Positions 15,606 to 43,391 of a stretch of DNA of 64,000 nucleotides are shown here, one piece after another; positions within the stretch are counted from its first letter, which is position 1, and each line of letters opens with the position of its first letter. The notes under the pieces were generated by a model. The model was not told the origin of the DNA. It searched no databases and was given only the letters and a program-made list of their open reading frames with translations. Source of the DNA: Halioglobus sp. (GTDB lineage: Bacteria; Pseudomonadota; Gammaproteobacteria; Pseudomonadales; Halieaceae); contig JAGRIH010000035.1 in the NCBI GenBank assembly GCA_020443345.1, positions 1 through 64,000 of the forward strand. Reading direction: 5' to 3'. The position numbers and the translations under genes were made by a program.

Positions 15606-17447
15606 TCAGGACTCAACCTTGCGCTCCTGTGTTGTCACCTGATCGACGTCTTTCCGCTCACTGTTGCCAGAGTCAAGGTTTTTGATCAACAATGAGATGA
15701 TTTTCTGCTCAGGTGGACCGAAGACCTCCTCCGCTCGGTGAACCAGGTAGAGGGTGCGCGCCAGTGAAGCACTGTGGAGTTCGCGTTTTCGGAGTTCGCT
15801 GTTTGTTTCCATGATGGCGTTCTCCGGGAGAATGGTGGCGTAGTTTCCCGATTTTACCAGCATGACCAGGCTGGCAAGTGAATCGATCTCCAGTTCAGGC
15901 TGGAGTTTGATCCCAAGCTTTGCGAACTGCCGATCTATCAGTGTGCGAATGCCATGATCGGGGCTCGGAAGTATTAGTTTCAAATGCATCAAATCTTCAG
16001 GCATCAAAGGAGCGCTGATATCTCTCGCTTCAACTCCCGGTCCAAGGTAGACGCTGAGCGGATCCTGTCGCAAGCGGATGCTATGCAGGCCCTCCATATT
16101 GTACAGTGATTCGACGATCGCAAAGAGAATACGTTTTTCCTGTAGCCATAGAAATTGTTTCTTGCTGTATCCCTCGAGACTGATCAGGTGAAGCAACGGG
16201 TAGGTTTTGCGCCATTCCTCAATGGTGTCTCGCAGCGCCACGGCAATTGCGCTGCGGCTGTCGTAAGCCGGCAGGTAGCCGATCGTTACGATGGTATGTT
16301 CGCTGCCTACGACTTTCTTGTCCGGCGTAAGAAGGTTTTCCACCTGTGCCAACAATTGCTTTGTCACTCGATGTAATCGGTGAGCGGATTCACGCGGGGT
16401 GACGCCCGTAGTGGAGCGATCAAACAGCTTGGTTCCAATACTGGCCTCTAGGTTCTTGATCTGTTTGCTCATTGCAGGCTGTACCACATGAAGTTGGCGG
16501 GCGGCTTTTGACACGCTGCGCGTGGTATACAGTGTCTCGAAAGACCTGAGGCCGCGGTGTGTGACGCTGAATTGCCGGACCCGATTCTTACTGAAGTCTG
16601 CGATGAGCGCGCGCAGCTGCTCTGCAAGTCGTTCGGTGTCTTCCGGTTGCGGGTCTTCCTTATCTCGGTCGATAACCAATGCCAGGCGGTCTGTGTTTTT
16701 GAGTGGATAGCTTTCCAGCCAGCCACCGGTCATCACCGGCAGTAGGGTATGCTCGGGCACTATTAGCACGCGGCCGGGTTCCTCTATGAGATAGCGTGGT
16801 ATCTGCCAGTGCTGCAAGGAAAGATGGGTGAGCCGTTTCATCACGTCTTCGACCAGCATCTTCTCCAGTGCCTGCTGTTCGAAATCCCCCAGGCCGGCGA
16901 TGGCAATGCTTCTGTGTCGGAGCAAATCCATATCGAGAGGGCTTCCCGGTACCGTATCCATGGTTTTCGCCAGGGCAACCACCGACCAGCCGTAGTCGCA
17001 CACATGACTGGACTGTGGAGAGATCGAGTCGGGAACGCTCATCCGCAGGCGGTGTCCTCGAGGAAAACTGTTGTCTTCTATGATCAGACGAAACATACCG
17101 CTGCCGACACCGGCGCGCAGAGACCTGTGCAACTGCCCGCCCGCCATGGTTTCTGGCAGGACGATAGTCGGGGAGCAGCTCGTATCCTCACCGTGACTTT
17201 CTCTGAGGGATTCTACGCGGCGCAACTGCCAATCTATCTCGTCCATCTGGCAGTAAATGGACCATGCGGATGCCAGGGGATAGACCCCGCGGAACGCCCG
17301 TTCGAACAGCCGATTTCCAACGATCTGTTCGAGACCGGCCACGGAAGCGCTCAAGGTCGACTGACTGATCCCGAGAGTCCTGGCTGCCTCGGAAATGCTC
17401 TGGTACTCGCAAATGGTGGCGGCCTGGAAAAGACGTTTGAAGAGCAT
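15606..17447 (-). CDS. Double LysR-family regulator (two LTTR units in one chain)
   Basis: 613 residues from ATG 17447 (GGAG upstream); an in-frame start at 17468 coincides with the expected transcription start and is less likely. The first unit begins with a LysR winged-helix domain (SISEAARTLGISQSTLSASV) and a degenerate effector domain. A second complete LysR helix-turn-helix begins near residue 295 (SVSKAARQLHVVQPAMSKQI), followed by a second effector domain ending near 600. Single LTTRs are about 300 residues, so this is a tandem fusion. It is divergent from the amidohydrolase-led cluster and probably controls it, sensing ergothioneine or a thio-imidazole product. That ligand is inference. 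Confidence 0.85.
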   Translation of the reverse strand: MLFKRLFQAATICEYQSISEAARTLGISQSTLSASVAGLEQIVGNRLFERAFRGVYPLASAWSIYCQMDEIDWQLRRVESLRESHGEDTSCSPTIVLPETMAGGQLHRSLRAGVGSGMFRLIIEDNSFPRGHRLRMSVPDSISPQSSHVCDYGWSVVALAKTMDTVPGSPLDMDLLRHRSIAIAGLGDFEQQALEKMLVEDVMKRLTHLSLQHWQIPRYLIEEPGRVLIVPEHTLLPVMTGGWLESYPLKNTDRLALVIDRDKEDPQPEDTERLAEQLRALIADFSKNRVRQFSVTHRGLRSFETLYTTRSVSKAARQLHVVQPAMSKQIKNLEASIGTKLFDRSTTGVTPRESAHRLHRVTKQLLAQVENLLTPDKKVVGSEHTIVTIGYLPAYDSRSAIAVALRDTIEEWRKTYPLLHLISLEGYSKKQFLWLQEKRILFAIVESLYNMEGLHSIRLRQDPLSVYLGPGVEARDISAPLMPEDLMHLKLILPSPDHGIRTLIDRQFAKLGIKLQPELEIDSLASLVMLVKSGNYATILPENAIMETNSELRKRELHSASLARTLYLVHRAEEVFGPPEQKIISLLIKNLDSGNSERKDVDQVTTQERKVES

Positions 17448-17474
17448 GGTCTGGGCTCCGGCTGGCAAAGCTCC

Positions 17475-17503
17475 TTTATATATCGAAAAAATCTATATGA
17501 CAA
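17475..17503 (-). promoter_or_regulatory. Sigma70-type promoter of the double LysR gene
   Basis: On the minus strand, TTGTCA (17498-17503) and TATAAA (17475-17480) are separated by exactly 17 bases. The predicted start is near 17468, giving a leader of about 20 bases with GGAG before ATG 17447. The elements overlap the inverted repeat at 17478-17498, which suggests negative autoregulation, as is typical of LysR genes. Confidence 0.65.
17478..17498. promoter_or_regulatory. Candidate LysR operator, ATATA-N11-TATAT
   Basis: A 21-bp imperfect palindrome with arms ATATA and TATAT and an 11-base centre fits the T-N11-A shape of LTTR boxes. It lies in the 210-bp intergenic region between the double LysR gene and the divergent amidohydrolase gene, directly over the regulator's promoter. 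A LysR-bound site here could both repress the regulator and activate the cluster. No binding data can be inferred beyond position and symmetry. Confidence 0.5.
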
Positions 17504-17656
17504 ATCGATGTATCTTATCTTTGGGTGATTTTCAATCTGCTCGCGGGGTGCCAGTATGGCGCTTCACGAGTATGGGCTTGCCACCTCGGCGGGACGCACC
17601 GGCGTAGCCCATGACCGGCGCGAATAAGGACACAACAGACATAGGTACACTGGGTA

Positions 17657-19057
17657 ATGGAACTCCATGATCGGGTATTACTGGGCAACGTTCTGACGGC
17701 AGATACTGTCTTAGAAGACGGTTTCGTTGCCATGAAGGGAGAATCAGTTTCCGCTGTCGGGCGGGGAAAGCCGCCACAAGCCAGGGAGCTCGTCGATTAC
17801 AAAGGCTGTTGGTTACTTCCCGGCATTGTAGACGGCCAAGTCCATACCAAGAGTCAGAGAGACCAGGAGGGCTTCGAAAAAGCAAGTTGCGCAGCCGCCG
17901 CAGGGGGTGTGACCACCATGGTGGATATGCCCTACGATGAGGCAGGACTCGTCTGCTCCGCGGTCAAACTGACTGAGAAGGCGGACGAGGCCGGAGCACG
18001 GAGTCGGGTCGATTTCGCTTTGTATGGCACCATATCGCCGCGAGACGGCATCGACGAAATCCAGGGCATTGTCGATGCCGGTGCCTGTGCATTCAAATTT
18101 TCGACTTTTGAGACCCACCCGGAACGCTTTCCCAGAATCAGCCCGCCGCTGATGTACGAGGCATGCCAGGTCATAGCGTCCTCGGGGCTGGCGGTGGGCG
18201 TTCACAACGAGCACCAGGAGACCGTCGCCTATTTCACCGACCATGTACGCGCCAGCGGTGATACTTCCCCCGCCAGTCACGGTCGCTCGCGCCCGCCGAT
18301 CAGCGAGTTGCTGGCAATCAACGAAATCTACGAGATCGGCGCGGCGACCGGTTGCCGTGTACACGTCGTGCACTGCTCCCTCGGACGCGGATTTGACATC
18401 TGTGAGCAGTACCGTCGACAGGGGTATCCGGTGTCCATAGAAACCTGCATTCACTACCTCATGCTCAACGAGGACGATGTCATACGCCAGGGTGGGCTGT
18501 GCAAAGTCAATCCACCGATCCGGGGGCCGCGAGAGCAGAATAGGCTTTGGCGGTACCTTGAACGCGATGCGATTGATTTCGTATCAACCGACCACGTGGC
18601 GTGGTCCCTGGATCGCAAGAACAAACCGGTGATGGCTGAAAATTCCTCCGGGATGCCGGGTATGGAGTCGCTCTGCGCGCTGTTGTTCAAGGGTTGTATG
18701 GAGCGTGGCTTAGATCTTCGCGTTATTCCCCGAGTACTTTCGCGGAGGCCCGCGAGGCATTTTTGTCTACATGGGCGCAAGGGGGAACTGCAGGAGGGGT
18801 ATGATGCCGACGTGGTGGTCGTAGAGCCCGGAGATTTCCAACTGGACTGCAGGCGATTCCAGACCGTAGTGAAATGGAGCCCATTCGATGGCACCCGCCT
18901 GCCGGTGCGTATCCGCGCTACCTACAATCGGGGGCGGCAGGTGTGGGACGGCGAGACGGTGATGGCTAGCCCCGGTGACGGTCGATTCCAAAGGGCGGTG
19001 CCGACGGATACCGCGCAGCGCCAGGATGGATCGCTAACACCGGCTCTCGGTAGCTGA
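17657..19057 (+). CDS. Amidohydrolase of the hydantoinase/allantoinase group
   Basis: 466 residues. The fold is that of cyclic amidases: an N-terminal beta domain (LLGNVLTADTVLEDG), then the metal strand LLPGIVDGQVHTKS (residues 53-66). The carboxylated Lys candidate is Lys147 in AFKFST, His183/186 lie in GVHNEHQE, His236/239 in HVVHCS, and the final Asp312 in STDHVAW. The usual H-x-H is Q-V-H here (Gln61, His63), which should alter the alpha-metal site. In the proposed pathway it opens the ring of hydantoin-5-propionate to N-carbamoyl-glutamate. It is the first gene of the plus-strand cluster, 16 bp before the HAL homologue. No strong ribosome site is visible. Confidence 0.8.
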   Translation: MELHDRVLLGNVLTADTVLEDGFVAMKGESVSAVGRGKPPQARELVDYKGCWLLPGIVDGQVHTKSQRDQEGFEKASCAAAAGGVTTMVDMPYDEAGLVCSAVKLTEKADEAGARSRVDFALYGTISPRDGIDEIQGIVDAGACAFKFSTFETHPERFPRISPPLMYEACQVIASSGLAVGVHNEHQETVAYFTDHVRASGDTSPASHGRSRPPISELLAINEIYEIGAATGCRVHVVHCSLGRGFDICEQYRRQGYPVSIETCIHYLMLNEDDVIRQGGLCKVNPPIRGPREQNRLWRYLERDAIDFVSTDHVAWSLDRKNKPVMAENSSGMPGMESLCALLFKGCMERGLDLRVIPRVLSRRPARHFCLHGRKGELQEGYDADVVVVEPGDFQLDCRRFQTVVKWSPFDGTRLPVRIRATYNRGRQVWDGETVMASPGDGRFQRAVPTDTAQRQDGSLTPALGS

Positions 19058-19073
19058 AAGGTAAGGAAGCACA

Positions 19074-20618
19074 ATGGTTCAAGGTAACGGCGTTGAGGTG
19101 GTAGTGTTTGACGGGAAAACATGGGTGTCCGCCGCTGATATCGTCGCGATCGCACGGGGAGCACCGGTTCAGGTGGCGGATTCTGTCTACTGCGAACTCT
19201 CCGATGTCGAGGAATGGATCCAGAGCGTGATCAAGTCTCGCAAGCCGGTCTATGGCCTGAATACCGCGCTGGGACACCTCAAGGCTCAGACCATCGACGA
19301 GGCTCAGATCGCCGAAAACCAATACAGGATGTTACGCGTGCACAACGGTGCAGTTGGCCCCGGTCTGCCCGCGGAGCAGGTGCGTGCGGCGATGGCCGCC
19401 CGCCTGGTCGGCATGTGTAAGCGCAGCACTGCGGCATCGCCACGCGCGGTGCGCTTGATGGCAGGCATGCTAAATGCAGGCGTTCACCCAATCGTCCCCC
19501 GAGTCGGGTCTGTCGGGGCGGGCGATTTGGGCAACATGGCCGCCATCGGTTGTGCGATGATTGCAGAGGGCAAGGTCGAATATCGGGGCGCAATCATGCC
19601 GGCTTCAACGGCACTGGCGTCTGCCGAGCTGGAGCCGTTGGTGCAGGGGCCCCGTGATGGCCTGGTAATCGTAGCGGGAAATGGCTTCTCCATCGGCGCC
19701 GGCACACTGCTCGTTGCCGAATCAAATCGTATCGCAGATATTGCGGATATCGTGCTCGCCATGTCGCTAGAGAATATTCGAGGCAATCTGTCGGTACTTC
19801 ACCCGGCCCTGGATAAGGGCATTGCCGGGCAGGCGCGTTCGAGCGCAAATATCAGAACGATTCTGCGCGGGAGTTATCTGGAAAACCCGGGCGCCGCGAA
19901 AGAACTGCAGGATCCGCTGTCTTTCCGTGTGGCGCCGAATACCCACGGCGCCCTGCGTGAAACAACGGATTTTCTTACCAGGGCGGTGGAGGCCGAACTC
20001 AATGCCGATGCGCACAACCCCTCCCTTGTGGGAGAGGAATTCGTGCACAACGGCAACTTCCAACCCATGTTTCTTACGGCTGCGCTGGAAGCGCTGCGAC
20101 CGGCGCTGGTCCATCTCGCCAAGTTGTCCGAACGGCGTGTGAATCATGTCGTCGCCGATCTGATGCACGATGAAAATTTTGTCAAAAAAGAATTGGGAAG
20201 CAGCTTTTCGAAGTCATCCATTCTGTTCCTATACTCCTCCGCTGCGCTGACCGCGGAGGCGCGCCAACTTGCAGCGCCTGCATCTCTGGACTGCCCCCCT
20301 CTGGACTTCAATATTGAAGATCACGGGAGCAATGCTCCGCTAGCGGCGCAACGGGGATTTGAGGTGATTGCGTGCCTGGATAGCATTCTAGCCGTGGAAG
20401 CGATGATTGCGACGGAGTTGCAGCCGCCCGGTAGTATGGACAGGCCGTCGGGTCGAGGTGCAGCAGTCGCTCGAGACGCTGTTTATTCGACCATGAGTGG
20501 CATGGAATCGTGCAGTTCTCCTTCGGAAAATCATGCTGCAGTGGTAGCGTTGTTGCGTGACGGCCTTGTTAGTCAGGTTGCCAAAGCACATTCAAATAGT
20601 GAGAGTGTACCAAGATGA
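19074..20618 (+). CDS. HAL-family lyase lacking the MIO Ser; probable ergothionase
   Basis: 514 residues, alignable throughout with histidine ammonia-lyase: VYGLNTALG (59-67), GSVGAGDLGNMA (145-156), IVAGNGFSIG, LQDPLSFRVAP and NGNFQPMFL. Histidase has the triad Ala-Ser-Gly in GSVGASGDL, whose Ser is needed to build the MIO cofactor. Here one residue is deleted, leaving Ala149-Gly150. The enzyme therefore cannot form MIO by the usual route. Ergothionase, a HAL relative, removes trimethylamine from ergothioneine by acid/base catalysis without needing an amine-activating electrophile, as I recall. With a urocanase and DUF917 neighbours this is the best guess; product thiourocanate. Start ATG after AAGGAAG; overlaps the next gene by 4 bp. 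Confidence 0.75.
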   Translation: MVQGNGVEVVVFDGKTWVSAADIVAIARGAPVQVADSVYCELSDVEEWIQSVIKSRKPVYGLNTALGHLKAQTIDEAQIAENQYRMLRVHNGAVGPGLPAEQVRAAMAARLVGMCKRSTAASPRAVRLMAGMLNAGVHPIVPRVGSVGAGDLGNMAAIGCAMIAEGKVEYRGAIMPASTALASAELEPLVQGPRDGLVIVAGNGFSIGAGTLLVAESNRIADIADIVLAMSLENIRGNLSVLHPALDKGIAGQARSSANIRTILRGSYLENPGAAKELQDPLSFRVAPNTHGALRETTDFLTRAVEAELNADAHNPSLVGEEFVHNGNFQPMFLTAALEALRPALVHLAKLSERRVNHVVADLMHDENFVKKELGSSFSKSSILFLYSSAALTAEARQLAAPASLDCPPLDFNIEDHGSNAPLAAQRGFEVIACLDSILAVEAMIATELQPPGSMDRPSGRGAAVARDAVYSTMSGMESCSSPSENHAAVVALLRDGLVSQVAKAHSNSESVPR

Positions 20619-20962
20619 TCTATGAGTTGCGTCGTTATGGTATAGCAGAGAATCGCATGGTCGACATGGAGGAGCGCTTCCGCGAGGTTACCCTTCCGCT
20701 GTTTAAAAAATATGGTATCGAGTTGGTGGGCTGTCTGCATACCACTCGGCATGTGCAGGTTTGCGGTGATCAGGTTAATGAGGTTCCGACGGGGAAGAGT
20801 CAGTTCGTTTTTATGATGTCGTTTGCCGATGCGCACAGCAGACAGGCAGCCTGGGAGGGATATCATGCCGACGCCGACTTTCTCGCCGCGCGCCAGGAGC
20901 AGGCGGAAATAATCGAATCAATGGATATCGAGGTGTTCGAGGTCGTGCCATCGGCTGATTGA
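20615..20962 (+). CDS. NIPSNAP-family small protein
   Basis: 115 residues starting MIYELRRYGIAENRMVDMEE, the classic NIPSNAP opening, and ending with a predicted beta strand (DIEVFEVVP). It overlaps the HAL-like gene stop by 4 bp (ATGA), so the two are translationally coupled. NIPSNAP proteins form ferredoxin-like dimeric alpha-beta barrels and appear as accessory proteins in catabolic operons; few have defined activities. It may act on or shield a pathway intermediate here. That role is inference. Confidence 0.8.
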   Translation: MIYELRRYGIAENRMVDMEERFREVTLPLFKKYGIELVGCLHTTRHVQVCGDQVNEVPTGKSQFVFMMSFADAHSRQAAWEGYHADADFLAARQEQAEIIESMDIEVFEVVPSAD

Positions 20963-21046
20963 AGCGCCCCGGGCGTATCACGTGAGATATTAATTGGTAA
21001 GATCGCCGATTGCCGGTCTGCTATTTGTTTTTCCCGAGGAAACAAT

Positions 21047-22411
21047 ATGGATCGCGCCACGACCATAAGAAATATTGCCTACGGACAACTCATGCTGCCT
21101 CTGTCTCTGGCTGCTCTTCCCGTGGGCATCTACCTGGTGCCGATGTACGCTATCGAACTGGGCGTCACACTCACTCAACTTGGTCTGGTGATGATGATCG
21201 CCCGTATTTTCGATGTACTCACCGATCCACTGATCGGCTACCTCAGCGACAAGGAGCACCCGATACTCGGTTCGTACTATTTCTGGTTGGGAGCGGGCAC
21301 CGTCGTGATGTTGAGTGGCATCTATTTCCTGTTTCTGCCGGGTGAAATCTGGGGCACCAGCTATGTGTTCCTGTGGTTGATCGTTTTCTATCTGGGTTGG
21401 ACCATGATTTTTATCCCTTATCTTTCCTGGGGTACGCGTATCGCAGACAGTTATGCCAGCCGGTCTTCACTTGCCGGTATGCGGGAGTTTTTCAATTTTC
21501 TCGGTATGCTGATTACCGCCAGCATACCGGTCGTCGTAACCTACCTGGCCAACGACGATGCGAACCAGAATTCCCGCAATGTCGCCGCGCTTGGAACAAG
21601 CGCGATGATAACGCTGCCGCTCTCTATTCTGGTCCTGTTCTTCGCAATGCCGCGCGCCAGCGCCGCGGGTGTCGACAACCCGTCCGACCCGCAGCAAGGC
21701 TTTATGGCCCGAATGAGCGTCATTCTGACTGATGCGCCTTTTCGCAAGTTACTTACCGCCGTATTGATTATCGGTATCGGCAGTGGTATGTGGAACTCCA
21801 CCATCATCCTGTTTCTGACCTATTGGGCAAAACTGAAGACGCAAGCGCCGACGCTGATATTCATCTATCTGCTTTTCGCCTGTGTAGGCACCTGTGTCTG
21901 GGTTCGACTGTCCAAATCGATTTCAAAGCACGGCGCCATGGTGGTCGCCGGTTTTGGCACTGCGCTGGGCGCGACCGGTTTGTACTTTGCAGAACCCGGC
22001 CAATTCTGGGAATATGCGGCGGTTTACGGCTTTATGGGCGTCATGGCCCCCTCGATACAGATACTCGTCACCTCAATCATTGCCGATCTCGTGGAAATTG
22101 ATGCGAGAAATACGGGTATCGAACGCGCGGGACTGTTCTTTTCTTTCTGGTCCCTGTTCAAAAAGGCGGCTGACGCCATAGGCATTGGTGTTGCACTGAA
22201 TACACTGGCCTGGCTTGGTTTCAGAACGGAGGGTGTGAATTCCGAAACCGGTCTGCAGGCTCTGATGGCGTTCGTGGTAATAGCACCACAGCTAATGATT
22301 GTGTTGGGTGTGCTTGTCGTTCGCAATTTTCCGATCAATGCCAGTGTGACTGAATTAGCCGCCATCCCCGGGGACGACCTGGTGCCCCGGAGTGACGCCA
22401 AGACTGGCTGA
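21047..22411 (+). CDS. GPH/MFS-type inner-membrane transporter
   Basis: 454 residues with about twelve membrane segments. The N-terminal half has the glycoside-pentoside-hexuronide (MelB) signature: ARIFDVLTDPLIGYLSDK, then a long TM and WTMIFIPYLSWGTRI. GPH carriers couple uptake of sugars and other organic solutes to Na+ or H+. The start ATG follows GAGGAAACAAT. Placed between the HAL/NIPSNAP pair and the first DUF917 gene, it probably imports the pathway's substrate across the inner membrane. Specificity for ergothioneine is not demonstrated by any motif. Confidence 0.8.
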   Translation: MDRATTIRNIAYGQLMLPLSLAALPVGIYLVPMYAIELGVTLTQLGLVMMIARIFDVLTDPLIGYLSDKEHPILGSYYFWLGAGTVVMLSGIYFLFLPGEIWGTSYVFLWLIVFYLGWTMIFIPYLSWGTRIADSYASRSSLAGMREFFNFLGMLITASIPVVVTYLANDDANQNSRNVAALGTSAMITLPLSILVLFFAMPRASAAGVDNPSDPQQGFMARMSVILTDAPFRKLLTAVLIIGIGSGMWNSTIILFLTYWAKLKTQAPTLIFIYLLFACVGTCVWVRLSKSISKHGAMVVAGFGTALGATGLYFAEPGQFWEYAAVYGFMGVMAPSIQILVTSIIADLVEIDARNTGIERAGLFFSFWSLFKKAADAIGIGVALNTLAWLGFRTEGVNSETGLQALMAFVVIAPQLMIVLGVLVVRNFPINASVTELAAIPGDDLVPRSDAKTG

Positions 22412-22461
22412 TGAACTGGCTCTAACCCATGTACTCGCAGAGCGTTTCCCGGAGTAAACCT

Positions 22462-23541: not shown

Positions 23542-23865
23542 AGTCCCGGGCAGCAGGGTGAGCCGATAGCTCCTCTCTTCGCTCGACGCGATGGAAAATC
23601 CACTGTACAAGCGGATAAAGACTACCGCGGACGTGGTTTATCTGATTTCTGCTCTGGCCAGCGCGGTGGGAAATCCGGACAGGCGACGGGGTCGCTTCAC
23701 CCTCTCACTATCGATAAAGGTTATACCACTTACCTGTTTTTATGATGTTACTCCTGTTCTGGTTTCCCGGCCTGCGATTTATAGTTTTAGTGGACGGTCG
23801 CTCTGGACCGATGCGCGGCCATGACAGGTAAATAAAAAATTACGTACTTCGTGAGGAATCGAACC
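23542..23865 (+). other. Intergenic region before the TonB receptor
   Basis: About 320 bp without a supportable gene. It contains an AT-rich stretch and a short inverted repeat (CGGTC-N6-GACCG around 23798-23813). Because the TonB receptor has its own ribosome site and a long leader, this is the likely place for a second promoter of the cluster, but I see no convincing -35/-10 pair. Confidence 0.4.
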
Positions 23866-26025
23866 GTGAGCATAAACGACCTACCCAGGAAACATTCTGC
23901 AAGCTCTTGTGTATTGACGAGTGCAGTCCGCCACGTGATCGGCTGCTCGGTGGCAATGACGACCTTGTTAGGCCTGCAATCAACGGCCCATGCGGCCGGC
24001 GAAGTCGGCGTGTTGGAGGAAGTTATCGTCACTGCTACCAAGCGGGCGGCCAGCGTTCAGGATATTTCCGGCGCCGTGTCGGCACTGTCTGCAAAGACGA
24101 TGGAAGATTTGCGCCTGGAGAATATCGCAGATGCAGCCCTGCAGGTGCCCAACGTGACCCTCTCGACCGCAGGCAACCACACGCCGTTCATCTTCATCCG
24201 TGGGTTGGGTCTCAGTGATTTTAACGCAATCTCCGTCGGATCTGTCGGCATCTACCAGGACGAAGTCTACATGAACAGTACGGCTGCGCAATTGCAGCAG
24301 ATGTACGACCTTCAGCGCATCGAAGTTTTGCGCGGTCCGCAGGGTACGCTCTACGGCCGCAATACAACAGGCGGTGTGATAAACCTGGTGTCCAATCGCC
24401 CGGAGCAGGAAAACAGCTTGAGTTTGAAGGGCAGCTATGGCCGTTACGATCAGGTCGATCTTGAGGCCGTGGGCAATCTGGCATTCACTGAAGAACTGGC
24501 GAGTCGTTTGGCGATAGTACGCCATACGCGAGACGCCATCTTCGAAAACACCAACAACACCGGCGATGCCACTGATGCCGACAGCTGGGCCGCACGAGCC
24601 ATGTTGCGGTGGGACGCGACTGAAGAGCAGTCATGGTATTTCAGCCTCTACGGATCCAAGGTGGATGAGAGTGCCCGTGGCCGGGATCGCTCCAACATCG
24701 CCGAGCACCCCAACCGGTCTGACCCGGGCAAGCCCCGGTCTGAACCACTGACTGATCCGGGGCATGAAAAGATTGACGTTTTCGGCTCGACGCTGATAGG
24801 TAATATTGATTTCAGTTCTTTCACCCTGACCTCGGTAACTGGCTTCCTCAACAGTGAGAGGGACACGGAAGAGGACATCGACTCGTTGGCGATCGACACG
24901 CTGTGGGACATGCGCCGCAACGAGGCGGACCAGTTCAGCCAGGAACTGCGCCTGGCGTCTGACGGCAGTAGCAACCTCGATTGGACGGTCGGACTGTACT
25001 ACTTCTACGAGGACCTGGAGGCGGAGGTCGATCTGGAAGCCAATAACCTTTTCAATGCAACGTTCGTTTCGATGACCGATTACACCCAGGAAACTACGAC
25101 CTACGCGCTGTTTTCTGATCTCAGCTACCAGTTGAGCGAGCGAATCGAGTTGTTCGGCGGATTGCGCTGGACATACGAAGAGAAGGACTTCGAGACAGCG
25201 CAGGAGGGCTTTTTCTTCGCCCCCTTCGAGACGCAGCGACAAAAGGACGACTGGTCAGAAATGAGCGGAGCCGTCGGGGTGAATTACGCGTTCAGCGATA
25301 GCAGCATGGTCTACCTCAAGTACAGCAATGGCTTCCGTGCAGGCGGCTTCAATGCCGGAGGCGCTGTATCGGACCCAAGCTTTGATCCGGAAACAGTGGA
25401 ATCTTTGGAGCTGGGATACAAGTTCGAAAACGACCCGCGGACCCTGCGTCTGAATCTGGCCGCCTTCGTCAACGACTACAAGGACATGCAGGTGTTTGCA
25501 CTGGTGGTGGAAAATGGCGTGCCCCGACAATACCTGACGAATGCCGCCGAGGCGAGCATCTCTGGATTTGAGGCGGAAATGGTCTGGCAGCCCACGGCCA
25601 GTCTTCAGTTTAATTTCAGCGCCGGCATTCTCAACACGGAGTTCGACGAGTACATTGACGGCAACGGCGTCGACCTTTCCGGTAACAGCCTGGTCGGAGC
25701 ACCTGAAACCACCGCAAGCGGCATTGTCAGTTACGAGCTGCCCCTTTCCAATGGTGGGGCCATACGCTTTATCAGCGATGTCAGCTACAGCGACGAGTAC
25801 TACTTTGATAATGAAAATACCGACCGACGGGCGGCACAGGAAAGGACTTTAGTCGGTGCGAGGCTGGCCTACGAGCCGGAGGATCGTCACTACAGCATCG
25901 CCCTGTGGGGGCGTAATCTGACGGACGAGGAGTACTTCACTCGTACCACGAACATCATTAACTGGGATTCGATCTTCCTCGGTGATCCCCGCACTTATGG
26001 TATAGAGGTTCGCTATGATTTCTGA
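23866..26025 (+). CDS. TonB-dependent outer-membrane receptor
   Basis: 719 residues from GTG 23866, chosen because GAGGA lies eight bases upstream; a GTG at 23851 also opens the frame. A signal sequence (about 20-45, ending STAHA) precedes a TonB box-like segment and the plug domain (EEVIVTATKRAASVQDISGA, later LRGPQGTLYGRNTTGGVINL). A long series of beta-barrel strands ends in ...GIEVRYDF, with the aromatic C-terminal residue required by the BAM machinery. It imports a solute into the periplasm with energy from ExbBD-TonB. Its place in the cluster suggests the thiol substrate. The TonB/ExbBD genes themselves are not in the window unless the 7.7-9.4 kb pair serves. Confidence 0.92.
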   Translation: MSINDLPRKHSASSCVLTSAVRHVIGCSVAMTTLLGLQSTAHAAGEVGVLEEVIVTATKRAASVQDISGAVSALSAKTMEDLRLENIADAALQVPNVTLSTAGNHTPFIFIRGLGLSDFNAISVGSVGIYQDEVYMNSTAAQLQQMYDLQRIEVLRGPQGTLYGRNTTGGVINLVSNRPEQENSLSLKGSYGRYDQVDLEAVGNLAFTEELASRLAIVRHTRDAIFENTNNTGDATDADSWAARAMLRWDATEEQSWYFSLYGSKVDESARGRDRSNIAEHPNRSDPGKPRSEPLTDPGHEKIDVFGSTLIGNIDFSSFTLTSVTGFLNSERDTEEDIDSLAIDTLWDMRRNEADQFSQELRLASDGSSNLDWTVGLYYFYEDLEAEVDLEANNLFNATFVSMTDYTQETTTYALFSDLSYQLSERIELFGGLRWTYEEKDFETAQEGFFFAPFETQRQKDDWSEMSGAVGVNYAFSDSSMVYLKYSNGFRAGGFNAGGAVSDPSFDPETVESLELGYKFENDPRTLRLNLAAFVNDYKDMQVFALVVENGVPRQYLTNAAEASISGFEAEMVWQPTASLQFNFSAGILNTEFDEYIDGNGVDLSGNSLVGAPETTASGIVSYELPLSNGGAIRFISDVSYSDEYYFDNENTDRRAAQERTLVGARLAYEPEDRHYSIALWGRNLTDEEYFTRTTNIINWDSIFLGDPRTYGIEVRYDF

Positions 26026-26168
26026 TTTGGCCCTTTCTGATGCGCTTAACGGCGGCGCGCCGCCAGAGCCAGACTACTGGCAGGTGGCGGCCCGGGCCTG
26101 TGTCAGAAGACTCTCAACCGGAAGGGTCTCGGACGAGGCCAGATTCTCGACGGCATTGCGGAGGCGAC

Positions 26169-27062
26169 ATGAACCCGAAAAAAAATGACCCGGGGCTCGT
26201 AACGACGCAGTGGCTGGCCCGGAATTTGTCCAATCCAGACCTGCGCATTTACGATTGCTCGGTAATTCTTCAACCGACAAACGAACCAGGGCAGCCTTTC
26301 GCGGCCGTTTCGGGCAGGAGGGCCTTTGAACAGGCGCATATACCCCGCGCCCAATTCCTGGACGTACCGGGTGAGTTATCCGCGCCGACACCTCCTGGCA
26401 GTCGGCTCACCCTTAGCTTTCCCGAGCGCACGCAACTCGAAGAGGTGATGCGCGCGAAGGGACTAAACCAGGACAACATGGCGGTACTTTACAGTACCAG
26501 TGCTTCGATGTGGGCCACCAGGGTGTGGTGGATTTTGCGCGCTTACGGGTTTACCAACGCAGCGGTACTGGACGGCGGTTTCCCGAAGTGGTCCGTGGAA
26601 AGGCGAGAGACGACCGGTACGGTCGAGTCGCCGCCGGTGGGCGATTTTGTCGCCGCTCCCAGAAATGACGACATGGTTGCCACGCGGGAGGATGTTCTGT
26701 GCGCAATCGATAGCGACTCGTCCGCCATCATCGATTCTCTCAGCTGCGCCATGTACCGTGGGAGAGCGGATAACTACTATGGCAGGCCGGGTCACATCAA
26801 ATCTGCCAAAAATGTATCTGTGGTGGAGGAACTGCATGACAGCGACACGAATTGCTTCATCAGCCTGGCAGCTGCGCAACGGATCTACGATGAGCGCGGC
26901 CTGGACAAAAGCCGTACTGTGATCAGCTACTGCGGCGGCGGCATTGCCGCGACGGTCAACGCGTTCATGCTTACGCGACTGGGTTATGAAAATGTAGCGA
27001 TTTATGATAACTCGATGAACGAGTGGGGCTTCGACGAGAGCCTGCCGATGGATGCGCCCTGA
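26169..27062 (+). CDS. Two-domain rhodanese (thiosulfate/mercaptopyruvate sulfurtransferase type)
   Basis: 297 residues from ATG 26169, preceded by GGAGGCGAC. Two rhodanese domains: an inactive first one (IYDCSVILQP, HIPRAQFLDV, LDGGFPKW) and a C-terminal domain with catalytic Cys255 in SYCGGGIAAT. In SseA/TST enzymes this Cys carries a persulfide. It fits a cluster that releases sulfide or a sulfane from a thio-imidazole ring, taking up or detoxifying the sulfur. It lies 44 bp before the BASS carrier. An acceptor cannot be named from sequence. Confidence 0.88.
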   Translation: MNPKKNDPGLVTTQWLARNLSNPDLRIYDCSVILQPTNEPGQPFAAVSGRRAFEQAHIPRAQFLDVPGELSAPTPPGSRLTLSFPERTQLEEVMRAKGLNQDNMAVLYSTSASMWATRVWWILRAYGFTNAAVLDGGFPKWSVERRETTGTVESPPVGDFVAAPRNDDMVATREDVLCAIDSDSSAIIDSLSCAMYRGRADNYYGRPGHIKSAKNVSVVEELHDSDTNCFISLAAAQRIYDERGLDKSRTVISYCGGGIAATVNAFMLTRLGYENVAIYDNSMNEWGFDESLPMDAP

Positions 27063-27105
27063 TGCTTCGCAGGCGAAAAACAGTGTCCGGCACCGGGGCT
27101 GATTG

Positions 27106-28068
27106 ATGTCTCTGAGCGCAAATATTGCAGCGCTGCTCATTGCCATTTTGCTGTTCAATGCCGGACGCTGTTGTAACGTCGATGGATTGTTTGCCTCCAT
27201 AAAAAATTGGCGGCCGATCTTCATCGCTCTGGCGTTGAATCTCTGCGTGATGCCCGTCCTCGCTTTGGCGCTCATTACGCTGTTCAGGCCGAGCGAGCCA
27301 TTCAGCCTGGCGATGATAATTCTTGCCTGCAGCCCGGTGGCACCTGTGGTGTCGGCGATCGCGACCGGTGCGCGCCTGGACGGTCATCTGGCCGTGGTGA
27401 TTGTTTTGCTTTTCTCCGTCATTGCGCCCGTTTCGGCACCCCTGATCCTGCATCTTGCGCTGGAGTGGGCCGATCTGCCCCCGTTTGCGTCAGTGGATTC
27501 CCTGCGCCTGGCGAAGCAATTGCTGTTGGTGGCGGTCCTTCCTCTTTTTGCGGGCCTGCTGGTAGCTCGCCTGCTGCCCGCGCCCGGCCGACGCCTTGAG
27601 CGGGGCATCAATTTCTCGGTCAATGCGCTGGCGGCCGGTTTGCTCACAATGCTGGTGTGGCAGTACGCCGACGTGATGTCGGACATCAGTACCGTGCATG
27701 TGGGTATGTTCATCGTATTTACAGAGATAGCGCTGGTATCCGGTTACCTCGCAGGAGGTAAGTCGCCATCAGCGCGCCGTTCGGTGGCCCTGTGTACGGG
27801 GCTGCAGAATGCCGGTCTGGCGGTGTTGATCGCAGCGTTGGCCTACCCGGACCCGCGCGTGACGGGATTCGTCCTGGTGCTCCACGTGACACAACTGCTG
27901 CAGGTGTACTTACAGGACAAGATCGGTCGCGACCGTCTGGTTACGCCCTCTGAACGGGCGCGCTCTGACTGCGTCGATGACGAACGACAAATGCAACGGG
28001 AGATGAACAGTGGGCTTCTGCGAGAGGAACTTAGGACGCATCCAAACCTGACTCAACAAGGAATCTAA
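27106..28068 (+). CDS. Bile acid:Na+ symporter (BASS) family transporter
   Basis: 320 residues, ATG at 27106, one codon after an in-frame TTG. About nine membrane segments. The BASS core is visible: NLCVMPVLALAL, IILACSPVAPVVSAIATGA (the Pro/Ser-rich discontinuous helix) and GLQNAGLAVLIAAL near the C-terminus, matching R-N-x-G-L-A-L-x-x-A. BASS carriers move organic anions with sodium. Here it might take up an anionic intermediate such as thiourocanate or hydantoin-propionate, or export a product. It is followed after 1 bp by the cupin gene. The hydrophilic C-terminal tail of about 45 residues is unusual. Confidence 0.8.
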   Translation: MSLSANIAALLIAILLFNAGRCCNVDGLFASIKNWRPIFIALALNLCVMPVLALALITLFRPSEPFSLAMIILACSPVAPVVSAIATGARLDGHLAVVIVLLFSVIAPVSAPLILHLALEWADLPPFASVDSLRLAKQLLLVAVLPLFAGLLVARLLPAPGRRLERGINFSVNALAAGLLTMLVWQYADVMSDISTVHVGMFIVFTEIALVSGYLAGGKSPSARRSVALCTGLQNAGLAVLIAALAYPDPRVTGFVLVLHVTQLLQVYLQDKIGRDRLVTPSERARSDCVDDERQMQREMNSGLLREELRTHPNLTQQGI

Positions 28069-28069
28069 A

Positions 28070-28435
28070 ATGAAAACCAATTACGAATCACTACCCGTAG
28101 CAGCTCGACTGGACGGCATCGACATTCGCCGCTGCCCCATGGGAGACGATATGATCCTGACTCTCGAAGAGTCACATAAGCCCACCGACTATGGCGACAT
28201 GTTCAAAAATTGCAAGGACGGCATGTGCCAGGTGCGGCACTGGATCTATGTCATTCGCGGAAAAATTTGTGTGGACTACACCGATGGCAGCTCTGAAACC
28301 CTCCACCAAGGAGACATCGGCTATCTACCTCCAGGACACCATCCGCGTTATCTCAAGCCGGGCCTGGCGGCTGTGTTCAGTCCTGCAAGCGAATTGTTGG
28401 TTGAGCGTGAGAAGTTCACGTTTCTCGAGCACTGA
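28070..28435 (+). CDS. Small cupin-domain protein
   Basis: 121 residues. The cupin core reads CQVRHWIYVIRGKICVDYTD, then GDIGYLPPGHHPRY, with His and Glu residues placed for a metal site. It starts 1 bp after the BASS gene with AAGGA just upstream, so it is in the same transcript. Cupins of this size can be metal-dependent oxygenases, isomerases or ligand binders. No substrate can be assigned. One possibility is an intermediate-processing or sensing role in the pathway. Confidence 0.75.
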   Translation: MKTNYESLPVAARLDGIDIRRCPMGDDMILTLEESHKPTDYGDMFKNCKDGMCQVRHWIYVIRGKICVDYTDGSSETLHQGDIGYLPPGHHPRYLKPGLAAVFSPASELLVEREKFTFLEH

Positions 28436-28476
28436 GCAGCGGGTTCCATCGAGAGAAACGCACTAGCGGCATTGGC

Positions 28477-29583
28477 ATGTCGGAATCTAGAAGAAAACTC
28501 AACGCGGATGATATCGAGAGCACCCTAGTGGGAGGTACGGCCCTCGGTTGTGGTCTTATGGGTACGGACAGGTATCCGGAGCAGAGGGAGTACGCCAACA
28601 GGGCGCTGCGTCAGGCAGACATCTATCTGACGAGCCTGGACAATTACTCTAGCCATGACAGTCTGGCGCTGGTCACAGGAATTGGACGTCCATCGTCAAC
28701 AGCGCTCGCCCTGGATATGTTCTCCGGCATCGGGGGCGCTGTGGACCTGTTGTTGCGTACTGCGCAATCTTCAGCGGTAGGTGTGTTCGTGGGGCACCCA
28801 GGTGGATTTCTGAATTGGATAGCGGCGTCTCGTACTGGGCTCGACGTGGTCGATCTGGCCGCCAACGGGCGTGGTCATCCGACAGCTGCAATGGGTGCAA
28901 TGGGGCTGGCCGGGGACAACAATGCGCGCATTACGCAGACGGTATGGTTCGAGCCGCCGCCAGAGTCAGGCGCCGTGCCGGTCTCGGCAGTCTTCACCAC
29001 CAGTCATACGCTGGGGGAGAAGTTTCTGCGCTACGTCGCGCATGAGAACGGCGGCGCCATCATGGCGGCCAGAGGCTTGTACGAGGTCGGTTTTCTGAAA
29101 TCACACGCGGCTCTCGGCGCTATGTCGTTCCAGCAGCGGATCGGAGAGGCTTTACTCTCAGTCTCCGGTGGGGACGAACGTATCGCGCAATTGATGAACG
29201 TGGTCGAGGAGAGTTGGTGCCTCAAGGGGCGCATTCAATCCGTGCGACTTGAGCCCACTCGGGATGCGTTTCTCGCGGGAATCCTGTGGCTGGAAACGGA
29301 GCGTGGTCCAACTGCCATCCTGATTTGCAACGAAGTCATGGGAGTCGATGTTGCCGGGACGCGCATTTCCACGTTTCCTGATCTGCATATCCTGCTCAAC
29401 CGCGATGGCGAACCGCTGGCGGCGAGGGCTTGTGAAGCAGGAAAGGAAGTCGTGATCGTCGGCGCACCCCACCGCAGCATCCCGCTGGGTAGCGGCGTCT
29501 GGGACGCCTCAGTATACCCTCAGGTCGAGCAAGCGCTCGGGCAACCCTTGGCAAGACATGTATTAGCCGCTGGTGAAGACTGA
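28477..29583 (+). CDS. DUF917 / S-methyl-thiohydantoin desulfurase-family protein (copy B)
   Basis: 368 residues. It shares with copy A the blocks GHPGGFLNW (about 106-114), DLAANGRGHPTAAMGAMGLA (126-145), STFPDLHILLN and SGVWDASVYPQVEQALG, in the same order; the rest is divergent. The N-terminal Gly-rich motif reads LGCGLMGTD rather than GTGGGG. Two paralogues in one cluster suggest a heteromer or a split of desulfuration and a following step. Typical DUF917 length is about 360. It is followed after 3 bp by the M20 amidase, and its own ribosome site is weak. Confidence 0.7.
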   Translation: MSESRRKLNADDIESTLVGGTALGCGLMGTDRYPEQREYANRALRQADIYLTSLDNYSSHDSLALVTGIGRPSSTALALDMFSGIGGAVDLLLRTAQSSAVGVFVGHPGGFLNWIAASRTGLDVVDLAANGRGHPTAAMGAMGLAGDNNARITQTVWFEPPPESGAVPVSAVFTTSHTLGEKFLRYVAHENGGAIMAARGLYEVGFLKSHAALGAMSFQQRIGEALLSVSGGDERIAQLMNVVEESWCLKGRIQSVRLEPTRDAFLAGILWLETERGPTAILICNEVMGVDVAGTRISTFPDLHILLNRDGEPLAARACEAGKEVVIVGAPHRSIPLGSGVWDASVYPQVEQALGQPLARHVLAAGED

Positions 29584-29586
29584 AGA

Positions 29587-30879
29587 ATGACTGAAGTAGT
29601 GCAGCACAATCGTGGCGATAACCGAATGTACACTGATGGCAAGCGACTATGGGATTCGGTTGAAGCGTTGGCTGAATACACGGACGCCGAAATGCCCTTC
29701 TCTCGCCTGCCTTTTTCGCAGATGCATGGGCACGCGCGGAAAAAGTTGGAGCACATGTTCCGCGGCGCCGATCTTGAGGTCAGGATCGACAGCGCCGGCA
29801 ACTTGATCGGAAGGCTTGAAGGCGCAAAGTGGAAAGACCGCGTGATCATGATCGGCTCTCACTCGGACACTGTTCCCGGAGGGGGGCGCTTCGACGGTAT
29901 CGCGGGGATACTGGCGGGACTGGAGCTGGCGCATACACTGAAGGATCGAGGCGTTCGCCTGGAGCATTCTCTGGAAATAGTTGATTTTCTCGCCGAGGAG
30001 CACAACGAATTCGGCGTATCGTGTATCGGCAGCCGTGGCATGTCGGGCCATCTCTCCAGCGAACATTTGACAATAGTCAATGACAATGGCGAATCCTTGT
30101 CCGCTGCCATTGACAGGATGGGCGGCAATACGATCCGGCTCGGTGATGCGCGCAGAACGGATCGGGATCTACACGCTTTTCTGGAACTCCATATCGAACA
30201 GGGTCCCGTGCTATACAGTACGGACATTGAAATCGGAGTAGTGGCCGACGTCGTGGGCATCCGACGCATGGAAGTCGAGGTCCAGGGACAGGCAAATCAT
30301 GCTGGAACGACGCCTATGAACCTGCGCCACGACGCCATGGTGGCGGCGGCCGACATGGTAGTCGCGGTCAACTGCGAAGCGCTGAAGCTCGATGCCGAGG
30401 GAAAAAGCTACTTTGTCGCGACTGTCGGCAGACTTTGCGTCAGTCCCAACGGCGCAAATGTCGTTCCCGGACGAGTGAATTTCGTCATCGACGCGCGCAG
30501 CAGCGATGACAAAATGCTCGAGCGGTTTGCAGTGGCGTGCGATGCGGCATTTGAGCGTATCTGCGAAGAGAGATCGACGAAGTATTGCAGCTCGGTGTCC
30601 ACGGATTCACCATCAACCCGTTGTAACTCCCGAGTTGTCGAGGCTATCGCTAGCACTTGCGAAGCACTGGGTGCGTCCCACCTACGCATGAGCAGTGGCG
30701 CGGGGCACGACGCGGTGTTCATGGGCAAGATAGCGCCAATGGGCATGTTATTCGTGCCATCGCGCGCGGGAATCAGCCACTCCTCGGAGGAGTGGACGGA
30801 GCCGGCGGCTCTCCATCTGGGAACAGAGGCGCTTTATCGGACGGTGTTGACTTTGGATAAATGCAGGATTGAAGACTGA
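29587..30879 (+). CDS. M20-type Zn amidase, N-carbamoyl-L-amino-acid hydrolase group
   Basis: 430 residues from ATG 29587; ATG 29626 is an alternative. Metal motifs are GSHSDTVPGGGRFDG (His92, Asp94/Asp103), FLAEEHNEFG (catalytic Glu137, metal Glu138), and LHIEQGPVLY (His202). The dimerisation-domain block NHAGTTPM and a C-terminal SGAGHDA with a following SHSSEEWT complete the hydantoinase/carbamoylase family. These enzymes cleave N-carbamoyl-amino acids or allantoate. In the proposed route it converts N-carbamoyl-glutamate to glutamate, CO2 and ammonia. The gene is 3 bp from DUF917 copy B, so they are coupled. Confidence 0.85.
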   Translation: MTEVVQHNRGDNRMYTDGKRLWDSVEALAEYTDAEMPFSRLPFSQMHGHARKKLEHMFRGADLEVRIDSAGNLIGRLEGAKWKDRVIMIGSHSDTVPGGGRFDGIAGILAGLELAHTLKDRGVRLEHSLEIVDFLAEEHNEFGVSCIGSRGMSGHLSSEHLTIVNDNGESLSAAIDRMGGNTIRLGDARRTDRDLHAFLELHIEQGPVLYSTDIEIGVVADVVGIRRMEVEVQGQANHAGTTPMNLRHDAMVAAADMVVAVNCEALKLDAEGKSYFVATVGRLCVSPNGANVVPGRVNFVIDARSSDDKMLERFAVACDAAFERICEERSTKYCSSVSTDSPSTRCNSRVVEAIASTCEALGASHLRMSSGAGHDAVFMGKIAPMGMLFVPSRAGISHSSEEWTEPAALHLGTEALYRTVLTLDKCRIED

Positions 30880-30985
30880 CAGCATATCGACCATGCGCTG
30901 TGGCGAAAGCACAGCCATTGCTGGAAGGGGAGCAAAATCGCCGGGGCAGCGTGCCTGAGCATCGGCGTAAGACGAGGAGAGACTG

Positions 30986-32635
30986 ATGACTAAGGCGGAA
31001 AAAATTAGGAAATACAAAGCGTATCGTGGCTCGGATTTGCGTTGTAAAGGCTGGTGACAGGAGTCGATTTTGCGCATGCTGGAGAACAACCTGGAAAACG
31101 CGGAGGATGCGGACAACCTGGTTATCTACGCTTCGCTTGCAAAGGCGGCGAGGGATTGGGATGCATACCATGCGATCGAGCGCTGCCTGAAGACGATGGG
31201 CGAGGACCAGACACTGGTGGTGCAGTCAGGCAAACCTGTAGGTTTGTTCAACACCTACGCCACCGCACCGATTGTCGTGATCGCCAACGGTTTCGTGGCA
31301 GCTCCCGAGGGATCGAACCCGCGCAAGTATACCTACGACATGCTGGAAAAAAAGAAGCTCATGCTACCCGGAATGACCGCTGGCGCATGGCAGTATATCG
31401 GCAGCCAGGGAATTATCCAGGGCACGTACGAAACTTTTGCCGCAGCCGGCCGCGAGTACTTTGGCGGCAGTCTTTCCGGTCGCACCATACTCACCGCCGG
31501 CTGCGGCGGCATGGGCGGCGCTCAACCGTTGGCTGGCGTGATGGTCGGTGCTTCCATACTCGTAGCTGATGTGCGCGCGGAACCGATGAAAATGCGGCTC
31601 GAACAGAAATATCTTGAAGAGATGACGGAAGACCTGGATGCGGCAATCGACAGATGGCTGGATGCTGCTCGGCGAGGGAAGCCGCGATCTGTGGGAGTGG
31701 TCGCAAATATCGTCGATGTTAACGATCGATTGATCGCCCGGGGCATTGTCCCCGATATCGTCACCGACCAGACGACCACGGAGCTTCGCTTGGGTTACTA
31801 TCCCGCCGGACTGTCGGCCGAAGAGGCGGATCAACTTCGCGAGACCGACCCGGAGCGAATAGAGGAACTCAACAAAAAAACCATTGCCCGACATGTGCGC
31901 GCAATGCTTGCTTTCCAGGAGCAGGGGGCCGTGGTCTTCGAGTACGGTAATGCACTGCGAAGGGTGGCAAGACAGCACGCGGGCGTCGACAACTCCTATG
32001 ATATAGGACTGTACATGACCATGTTCATCCGCCCGCTGTTCTGCCAGGGCATCGGACCATTCCGCTGGCTGTCCATTTCAGGAGACCCGGAGGACATTTA
32101 CCGAATCGATGCCATGTTGCTGGAAATGTTTGCCGATACCTCTCGGGTGACCAACTGGTTGAAGATTGCCAACCGTATCGAGTTTACCGGTCTGCCGGCA
32201 CGGATATGCTGGCTAGGTCACGGTGAGCGGGAGCGTGCTGCAAAGGAGGTCAACGCGATGGTGCGTCGTGGTGAGTTGTCGGGCCCCATTGCGTTCACCC
32301 GGGATCATCATGATTGCGGTGGCGCCTCGATACCGGAGCGCGAGACATTCCAGATGAAGGACGGCTCGGATGCCATAACGGATTGGGCCCTTCTCAACTG
32401 TCTGTTGAACGCCAGCAGCGGGGCTGATCTGGTGGCGCTGCATTCTCATTTTGCCGCCGGCGTCAGCTCCGGCGTCACTGTCGTCGCTGACGGAAGCGAA
32501 CAGGCCGACAGCAGAATAACCCGTGTGTTGACCGCAGATACAGGGCTGGGAGTGTTGCGATACGACGATGCGGGCTACGAGATAGCCGCTGAAACCAGAC
32601 GTGCACACGGCTTGGGACTGCCGGGTGAACAGTGA
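30986..32635 (+). CDS. Urocanase-family protein (thiourocanate hydratase-like) with in-frame TGA
   Basis: A urocanase homologue of about 550 codons. The start ATG 30986 has a strong GAGGAGA site, and the first 23 codons read MTKAEKIRKYKAYRGSDLRC then KGW, fitting the family N-terminus. Codon 24 (31055-31057) is TGA where relatives have a residue such as Gln or Arg; the frame then continues QESILRMLENN to the end. A TTG at 31070 and ATG at 31076 could reinitiate. NAD motif AGCGGMGGAQPLAG (about 171-184) and the Cys in ARICWLG (about 408) are kept. The urocanase block LHHGGGVG is replaced by LHSHFAAGVSSG, which suggests a different substrate, presumably thiourocanate. Confidence 0.75.
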
Positions 32636-43198: not shown

Positions 43199-43391
43199 GG
43201 AAAAGCCCCTTCAGCCTGGTGCTGGTCAAAGTGTACGGTGCACAGAGTATAGCAGGACGCCGCTGCCTCGATCGCAGTGCGCGGCGCCGCCCCTGCCCGC
43301 CGCGGTCGGGGCGCGTGCATTTGAGCGCTGTCTGGCGGCGCGCAATGTGGTCTATAGTGGCAGCAACCGGTGTTGTTTAACGGGGCCAGCG

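Follow-up and report, generated by a model that had tools for sequence, protein, structure and literature searches.

Ergothioneine is a sulfur-containing histidine derivative, an antioxidant which people obtain from the diet and do not make. Its catabolism by bacteria in five steps was reportedly worked out by Beliaeva, Leisinger and Seebeck in 2021. The reference list of PMC9732360 carries the five-step pathway paper as its ref. 63, curated NCBIfam models exist for both a thio and an S-methyl branch, and so with models and a published pathway at hand the kind of pathway is already known. Several described systems come closest to the locus treated here, a cluster of 13 genes at positions 15606-32635 of a 64,000 nucleotide stretch of Halioglobus sp. 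(contig JAGRIH010000035.1 of assembly GCA_020443345.1; "the window" denotes this whole stretch, and L, P and G numbers are our handles for loci, proteins and genomes). The five-step thio loci (L088, L089, L090, L094 and the same-order L125) hold the same five enzyme families as the window, with a lyase that likewise lacks the 4-methylideneimidazole-5-one (MIO) group. The S-methyl loci of Chelativorans (L043), of the Agrobacterium tumefaciens plasmid pAt (L087) and of Lichenihabitans (L092) hold the relatives to which the window hydratase and desulfurases are nearest. Finally, HutH and HutU of histidine utilisation (Hut) belong to the same protein families as the first two enzymes and catalyse the first two reactions in the same order.

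Set beside the thio branch, the window shares with L125 an ErtD and an ErtE over their cut-offs, and differs in that its hydratase and both desulfurases fall outside the thio equivalogs and that there are two desulfurases instead of one. As in the S-methyl branch the hydratase keeps an Arg-Glu pair and a short loop, and the lyase lies in a clade with the Chelativorans lyase; in contrast to that branch the window has a second desulfurase. From Hut it is set apart by the missing MIO, an altered urocanase loop and a genome with no HutI over cut-off. Overall the cluster encodes relatives of all five ergothioneine-degradation enzymes, and the reading we prefer, with a probability of roughly 0.6, is that it would take an ergothioneine-type histidine betaine, more probably an S-substituted one such as S-methyl-ergothioneine than ergothioneine itself, to glutamate. 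The S-substituted form seems the likelier because the middle enzymes miss the cut-offs of both branches and yet tend towards the S-methyl side in trees. The MIO-less lyase would eliminate trimethylamine, for which MIO may well be unneeded since quaternary amines leave readily; the urocanase homologue would then hydrate the thiourocanate-type product, and THD1, THD2 or both would take the sulfur group off the (S-substituted) thiohydantoin. ErtD is predicted by its curated model to open hydantoin-5-propionate and ErtE by its own to hydrolyse N-carbamoyl-glutamate, with substrate import probably via a TonB receptor and carriers, and gene control via a regulator with tandem helix-turn-helix (HTH) domains. 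The initial annotation had proposed the breakdown of ergothioneine itself in this order, ending with a hydantoinase-type and a carbamoylase-type enzyme. All the genes it named were found in place with Pfam and NCBIfam, the basis on which enzyme families were assigned, and its order of steps is supported, as are ErtD and ErtE, which exceed curated equivalog cut-offs. The pathway type stands, and free ergothioneine is the less likely substrate, because the hydratase and desulfurases miss the thio models and lean to the S-methyl side. The enzyme genes are these (scores here and below are bits/cut-off):

17657..19057, + strand: ErtD-type hydantoin-5-propionate amidohydrolase (NF058538, 637.8/600)
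19074..20618, + strand: MIO-less HAL-family lyase, ergothionase-like (PF00221; 6s7j, E 8.5e-54)
22429..23541, + strand: THD1, a DUF917/S-Me-THD desulfurase homologue (PF06032 and PF20906)
28477..29583, + strand: THD2, a second DUF917/S-Me-THD desulfurase homologue (both S-Me-THD domains, Pfam)
29587..30879, + strand: ErtE-type N-carbamoyl-glutamate amidohydrolase of the M20 family (NF058540, 540.5/520)
30986..32635, + strand: urocanase-family hydratase frame from ATG 30986, with TGA 31055-31057 at codon 24 (frame reading; the listed open reading frame, ORF, starts at TTG 31070)

Family membership is far beyond chance for the lyase and the hydratase, with E 2.3e-106 for HAL and 6.8e-71 and 8e-70 for the two urocanase domains (Pfam). 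ErtD misses a second ErtD model (NF058539, 377.4/650), and quick-method trees of ErtD and ErtE did not clearly separate the branches. The lyase, the sole PF00221 protein found in a search of the genome, lacks the MIO triad, as the initial annotation had said, its loop reading GSVGAGDL, and ergothionase 6s7j is its nearest solved structure by sequence. With that Treponema denticola enzyme (6s7j/6s7q), itself without the triad, it has QDPLSFR and EDHxSNxPLA in common (EDHGSNAPLA in the window), and the MIO-keeping lyases of the related loci L092, L093 and L095 have Tyr in the first of these motifs and EDHVSM in the second. The Treponema ergothionase is absent from our lyase tree, and the activity of the window lyase is a prediction. 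That ergothionase lacks MIO is stated in a 2026 paper, which also lists ergothionase organisms (PMC13405746). None of the best 120 of 612 relatives, the window protein included, showed the ASG[DN] motif at residues 91-220. In a 73-row tree the lyase goes with P0002-P0005 (support 100/98) inside a 50-row motif-less clade (100/99), to which the lyase from the S-methyl-type cluster of Chelativorans also belongs; the six lyases found in loci of the thio type make up a group apart (99/92).

Among 50 loci found via the lyase, several of them on short contigs, just two (L015 and L043) also carry relatives of each of the four remaining enzymes, and L028 has ErtD and hydratase relatives beside its lyase. 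A large MIO-less HAL-family clade occurs in Geodermatophilus, Arthrobacter and relatives (L018, L021, L022, L026, L027, L035, L040 and others), and near these Actinomycetota lyases, several again on short contigs, no ErtD, ErtE, hydratase or desulfurase relatives were found; the lone lyases were dropped as a clue to substrate, since pathway relatives lie nearby in too few of the 50 loci. Lyases that contain MIO adjoin ErtD/ErtE relatives at L092:10368-11897, L093:14693-16306 and L095:7023-8558, the one in L092 adjoining even an S-methyl-type hydratase and desulfurase, and this hints at other routes into hydantoin-5-propionate.

The hydratase scores 721.8/880 on the S-methyl-thiourocanate model NF058531, 635.7/930 on the thiourocanate model NF058530 and 621.8/375 on hutU. 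How these scores are to be read is seen from 10 reference hydratases, of which three (L043, L087 and L092) exceed the S-methyl cut-off, four (L088, L089, L090 and L094) that of the thio model (1018.7 to 1053.9 bits, with 999.2 for L125), and three (L096, L015 and L095) neither, and all 10 of which pass HutU. A 39-row tree pairs the window protein with P0126 (100/99; 61% identical), which is likewise below both branch cut-offs (719.7 and 595.2), and places the two in a clade of 22 rows (100/100) that includes the S-methyl class and unassigned proteins, with the thio class apart. By sequence, then, the hydratase is a branch of its own. Like the S-methyl and HutU types it keeps Arg424-Glu425, a pair that is Ile-Met in the thio class; on the substrate side its loop is as short as that of the S-methyl class, the HHGGGVG loop of HutU being replaced, and thio-type hydratases carry a longer GGGGYAGYM-type loop. 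Structures 8q9v and 8q9u, which we take to be of the S-methyl enzyme, differ at the arginine that corresponds to Arg424 (Arg against Ala), and so the depositors seem to have probed that residue. Elsewhere in the hydratase tree P0133, P0134, P0135, P0218 and P0227, with altered versions of GPFRW (GPFRMM, GPFRLL, GPFRII, GPFRLT) and short loops, cluster together as unassigned urocanase-family proteins.

THD1 and THD2 are 30% identical to one another and, like the hydratase, sit nearer the S-methyl side: on NF058532 (S-methyl) they score 282.2/450 and 260.2/450 and on NF058529 (thio) 174.1/440 and 169.3/440, so that the S-methyl model is favoured by 108 bits for THD1 and 91 bits for THD2, and five references reach 597.4 to 611.4 bits on NF058529. 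Across 18 desulfurase relatives 43 columns are invariant; THD1 retains 34 of them and THD2 31, and among the charged or amide residues there each retains 10 of 11. At 34 columns defined as separating three S-methyl from ten thio rows, THD1 is S-methyl-like at 11, thio-like at 5 and neither at 18, and THD2 at 14, 4 and 16 respectively. A first tree joined THD1 and THD2 (96/91) with a long-branch warning and was therefore repeated with an outgroup and with each copy omitted in turn. THD2 alone then goes with the S-methyl rows (92/99), and so does the pair when both copies are present (93/90, or 96/99 with P0123 and P0124 counted in); without the outgroup the pair, the S-methyl rows and P0122-P0125 are split from the thio, L096 and L015 rows (100/99, with a root that is for drawing only). 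AlphaFold models from 8-row alignments have pLDDT values of 84.8 (THD1) and 89.6 (THD2), and for both the DUF917 structure 2o3i is the only fold match at E below 0.001.

A number of these and other observations weigh against the preferred reading. The hydratase and both THD proteins are below the cut-offs of the S-methyl as well as the thio branch, and membership of the S-methyl branch as curated was rejected on the NF058531 and NF058532 scores. The 64 hydratase columns defined as separating 3 S-methyl from 9 thio sequences divide into 25 S-methyl-like, 23 thio-like and 16 neither. The same invariant Asp is lost in THD1 and THD2, long-branch warnings attach to all THD placements, and THD1 alone joins the S-methyl rows directly at 83/54 only (92/99 with P0123 and P0124). 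Of the lyases from S-methyl loci, those of L087 and L092 fall outside the clade of the window lyase, and that of L092 has MIO. Each of the three S-methyl reference loci has a GST-family gene adjoining its desulfurase (L043:2123-2746, L087:6086-6697 and L092:6673-7284) and none is in the window cluster, nor was a match to SBP56, the family of methanethiol oxidase, found in the genome search. ErtD/ErtE homologues adjoin MIO-containing lyases in L093 and L095, and so those two enzymes alone are no proof of an ergothioneine substrate. Lastly, the hydratase frame is broken by an in-frame TGA, which is considered further below. As a separate observation, L087 also has a gene for a molybdopterin S/N-oxide reductase.

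The genome at large bears on the choice of substrate. EgtB (534.1/360) adjoins EgtD (405.2/290.9) at L126:4983-7231 (G000:C66, near 123-125 kb), both over equivalog cut-offs and both overlooked by the initial annotation, and EgtB scores 337.0/420 on the SenA model. With these two examined among the ergothioneine synthesis genes, the organism likely makes ergothioneine besides carrying a breakdown cluster. HutI, reported absent by the initial annotation, has six matches across the genome (96.37% complete), none over cut-off and the best at 59.5 against 298.15; hutF and hutG, which were not specifically searched for, did not turn up among 39 window proteins scanned with Pfam, a set short of all ORFs.

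Degradation of free ergothioneine by the canonical route through thiourocanate and thiohydantoin, with the divergence of the middle enzymes being lineage drift only, would be in keeping with ErtD and ErtE over cut-off and with EgtB and EgtD in the same genome, given which free ergothioneine is likely at hand; the rhodanese would suit sulfide handling, and the lack of a GST in the cluster and of SBP56 in the genome is as would be expected. We consider this rather unlikely given the thio-model scores of the hydratase and desulfurases, the Ile-Met pair and longer loop of the thio-type hydratases, and a same-order genome which passes the thio models, so that the thio branch is available and is different. 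Clearly less probable is another C2-modified histidine betaine, for example the sulfonate or the selenium analogue selenoneine, with THD1 and THD2 serving different substituents. The position of hydratase and desulfurases alike on a third branch, the just 30% identity of the desulfurase copies, an ergothioneine sulfonate route (Yan 2022, by its title in the references of PMC13405746) and the top NCBIfam match of the regulator, a selenium-metabolism LysR model far below its cut-off (129.3/250), all fit with it. Set against these, Pfam and NCBIfam place no selenium-specific enzyme among the 13 cluster genes, and EgtB scores far higher on its own model than on that of SenA. As for Hut, the canonical pathway was rejected for loss of MIO and for the lack of a HutI over cut-off; nor is a Hut role likely in a genome whose searches gave no second HAL or urocanase and no HutI that reaches its cut-off. 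An altered histidine utilisation acting on an imidazole ring without sulfur would account for the HAL and urocanase families and for a hutU model that is passed, although thio and S-methyl references pass it too. It is very improbable in view of the missing MIO, the Leu which stands in the lyase for the Tyr of the HAL motif QDPY, the replaced HHGGGVG loop, the HutI result, and two desulfurase homologues that would be left without a role.

The cluster may also be decaying, with step 2 blocked and the pathway off in this strain. The initial annotation rightly placed a urocanase homologue here, yet the start of the ORF as listed does not hold, for the frame runs from ATG 30986 and the TGA at 31055 had been overlooked. 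That codon falls within [KR][GS]W-x-[QT]E, a conserved motif near the N-terminus that is open in 10 of 10 aligned relatives; the genome search finds the same single TGA and no second urocanase. The frame is open from after the TGA to 32635, and the listed ORF of 521 amino acids (31070-32635) is without the conserved N-terminus. In the assembly as read, step 2 would need re-initiation downstream of the stop, or else the gene would be inactive. AGGAG stands six bases upstream of TTG 31070, and so re-initiation could yield a 521-residue protein; an assembly error of one base is possible too in a genome of 70 contigs, and from sequence it is not distinguishable from re-initiation or from a genuine nonsense mutation. 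As this is the only interruption observed, with open frames in the remaining 12 genes, decay is doubtful. Returning to an S-substituted ergothioneine as substrate, one elaboration can be put forward tentatively, namely that the organism makes ergothioneine through EgtB and EgtD and would dismantle an S-modified form by a third branch, with its own hydratase subfamily and a diverged DUF917 pair (two halves, or enzymes for two substituents), fed by the TonB, GPH and BASS proteins.

A THD1-like protein is present in 8 of 58 near genomes, its own included (matches elsewhere are at most 27% identical), and in none of the other four genomes of the genus. ErtD at E 1e-90 or better occurs in one of 140 family genomes, its own; THD1 at E 1e-25 or better in two of 390 order genomes, its own and G795; and ErtD over cut-off in 7 of 398 phylum genomes, again counting its own. 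A cluster of the window type was not found in 139 other family genomes (by the ErtD test) or 389 other order genomes (by the desulfurase test). G795 carries a cluster (L125, on G795:C23) that passes the thio models, with 688.2 for ErtD, 524.6 for ErtE, 601.4 for the desulfurase and 999.2 for the hydratase; it is compact, and the ORFs upstream of its ErtD resemble an ABC transporter on inspection by eye.

In the open-licence literature, among the matches listed, this cluster type was not found, and new in relation to it are the third-branch hydratase, the two diverged desulfurases, the TonB/GPH/BASS genes and the co-occurrence of EgtB and EgtD. The initial annotation had considered the arrangement, with its transporters and double regulator, unfamiliar; this is right for the variant, the kind of pathway being curated and published and a regulator with two HTH domains being found also in L089 and L093. 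Microbial turnover of ergothioneine leads to trimethylamine and sulfur compounds, and the cluster offers a candidate hydratase and two candidate desulfurases outside both curated branches along with a candidate for outer-membrane uptake. A genome that probably codes for both synthesis and breakdown of ergothioneine raises the question of the turnover of modified ergothioneine, and should only the known pathway be at work here the cluster would still extend it to a new lineage, and with an unusual set of genes.

The other features of the cluster are as follows:

15606..17468, - strand: tandem-HTH LysR-type regulator of 620 amino acids, with two HTH_1 domains and one LysR_substrate domain (Pfam)
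17478..17513, no strand: imperfect 9-bp inverted repeat, 8/9 complementary, 18 bp apart, in the gap between regulator and ErtD (sequence)
20615..20962, + strand: NIPSNAP-domain protein (PF07978, 42.5 bits)
21047..22411, + strand: GPH/MFS_2-type carrier (PF13347, 197 bits; TIGR00792 below cut-off)
23851..26025, + strand: TonB-dependent receptor (PF00593, PF07715)
26040..27062, + strand: two-domain rhodanese/3-mercaptopyruvate-sulfurtransferase-like protein with a CGGGIAA loop (PF00581; NF008557, 127.1/250), the start possibly being 26169 instead
27103..28068, + strand: BASS/SBF-family carrier (PF01758, 57 bits; TIGR00841, 61.7/326.3)
28070..28435, + strand: small cupin-like protein (PF07883, Cupin_2, 21 bits, below the cut-off of 27.2)

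Comparison of the regulator with four regulators from related loci matched both its HTH stretches in those of L093 (618 amino acids) and L089 (566), neither of which adjoins ErtD, and gave a confident match to the second HTH only in those of L088 (440) and L089 (401), which both do. The inverted repeat at 17478..17513 is possibly its site. The TonB receptor would serve outer-membrane uptake and the GPH carrier probably uptake as well, and with these and BASS, and no ABC transporter, the window differs from L088 and L089, which have TRAP genes nearby.

By the ORF list 12 of the genes are on the + strand with the regulator divergent, and since distances between the + strand genes range from a 4-base overlap up to 309 bases, more than one transcript is possible. 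Third-position GC is 0.62-0.69 in cluster genes; of the flanking genes sampled, four on the right have 0.74-0.79 and three on the left 0.56-0.72, values compatible with acquisition of the cluster and no proof of it. The window has no tRNA, and no direct repeat bracketing the cluster was found. An inverted pair that brackets it at 13763 and 33995 (24 nt, 79% complementary) has each arm within a predicted gene and was put down to chance. An empty insertion site within the genus was not demonstrable, as the matches there to the proteins on either side of the cluster, at 14641 and 32788, are distant only (28-30% and 26-38% identity). Further off, an integrase ORF at 32-706 has a Phage_int_SAM_4 domain and a catalytic domain that covers only positions 2-75 of 172, and so may be a fragment, and at 43134-45215 lipase maturation factor (LMF1) domains are fused to a DCC1-like thiol-disulfide domain.

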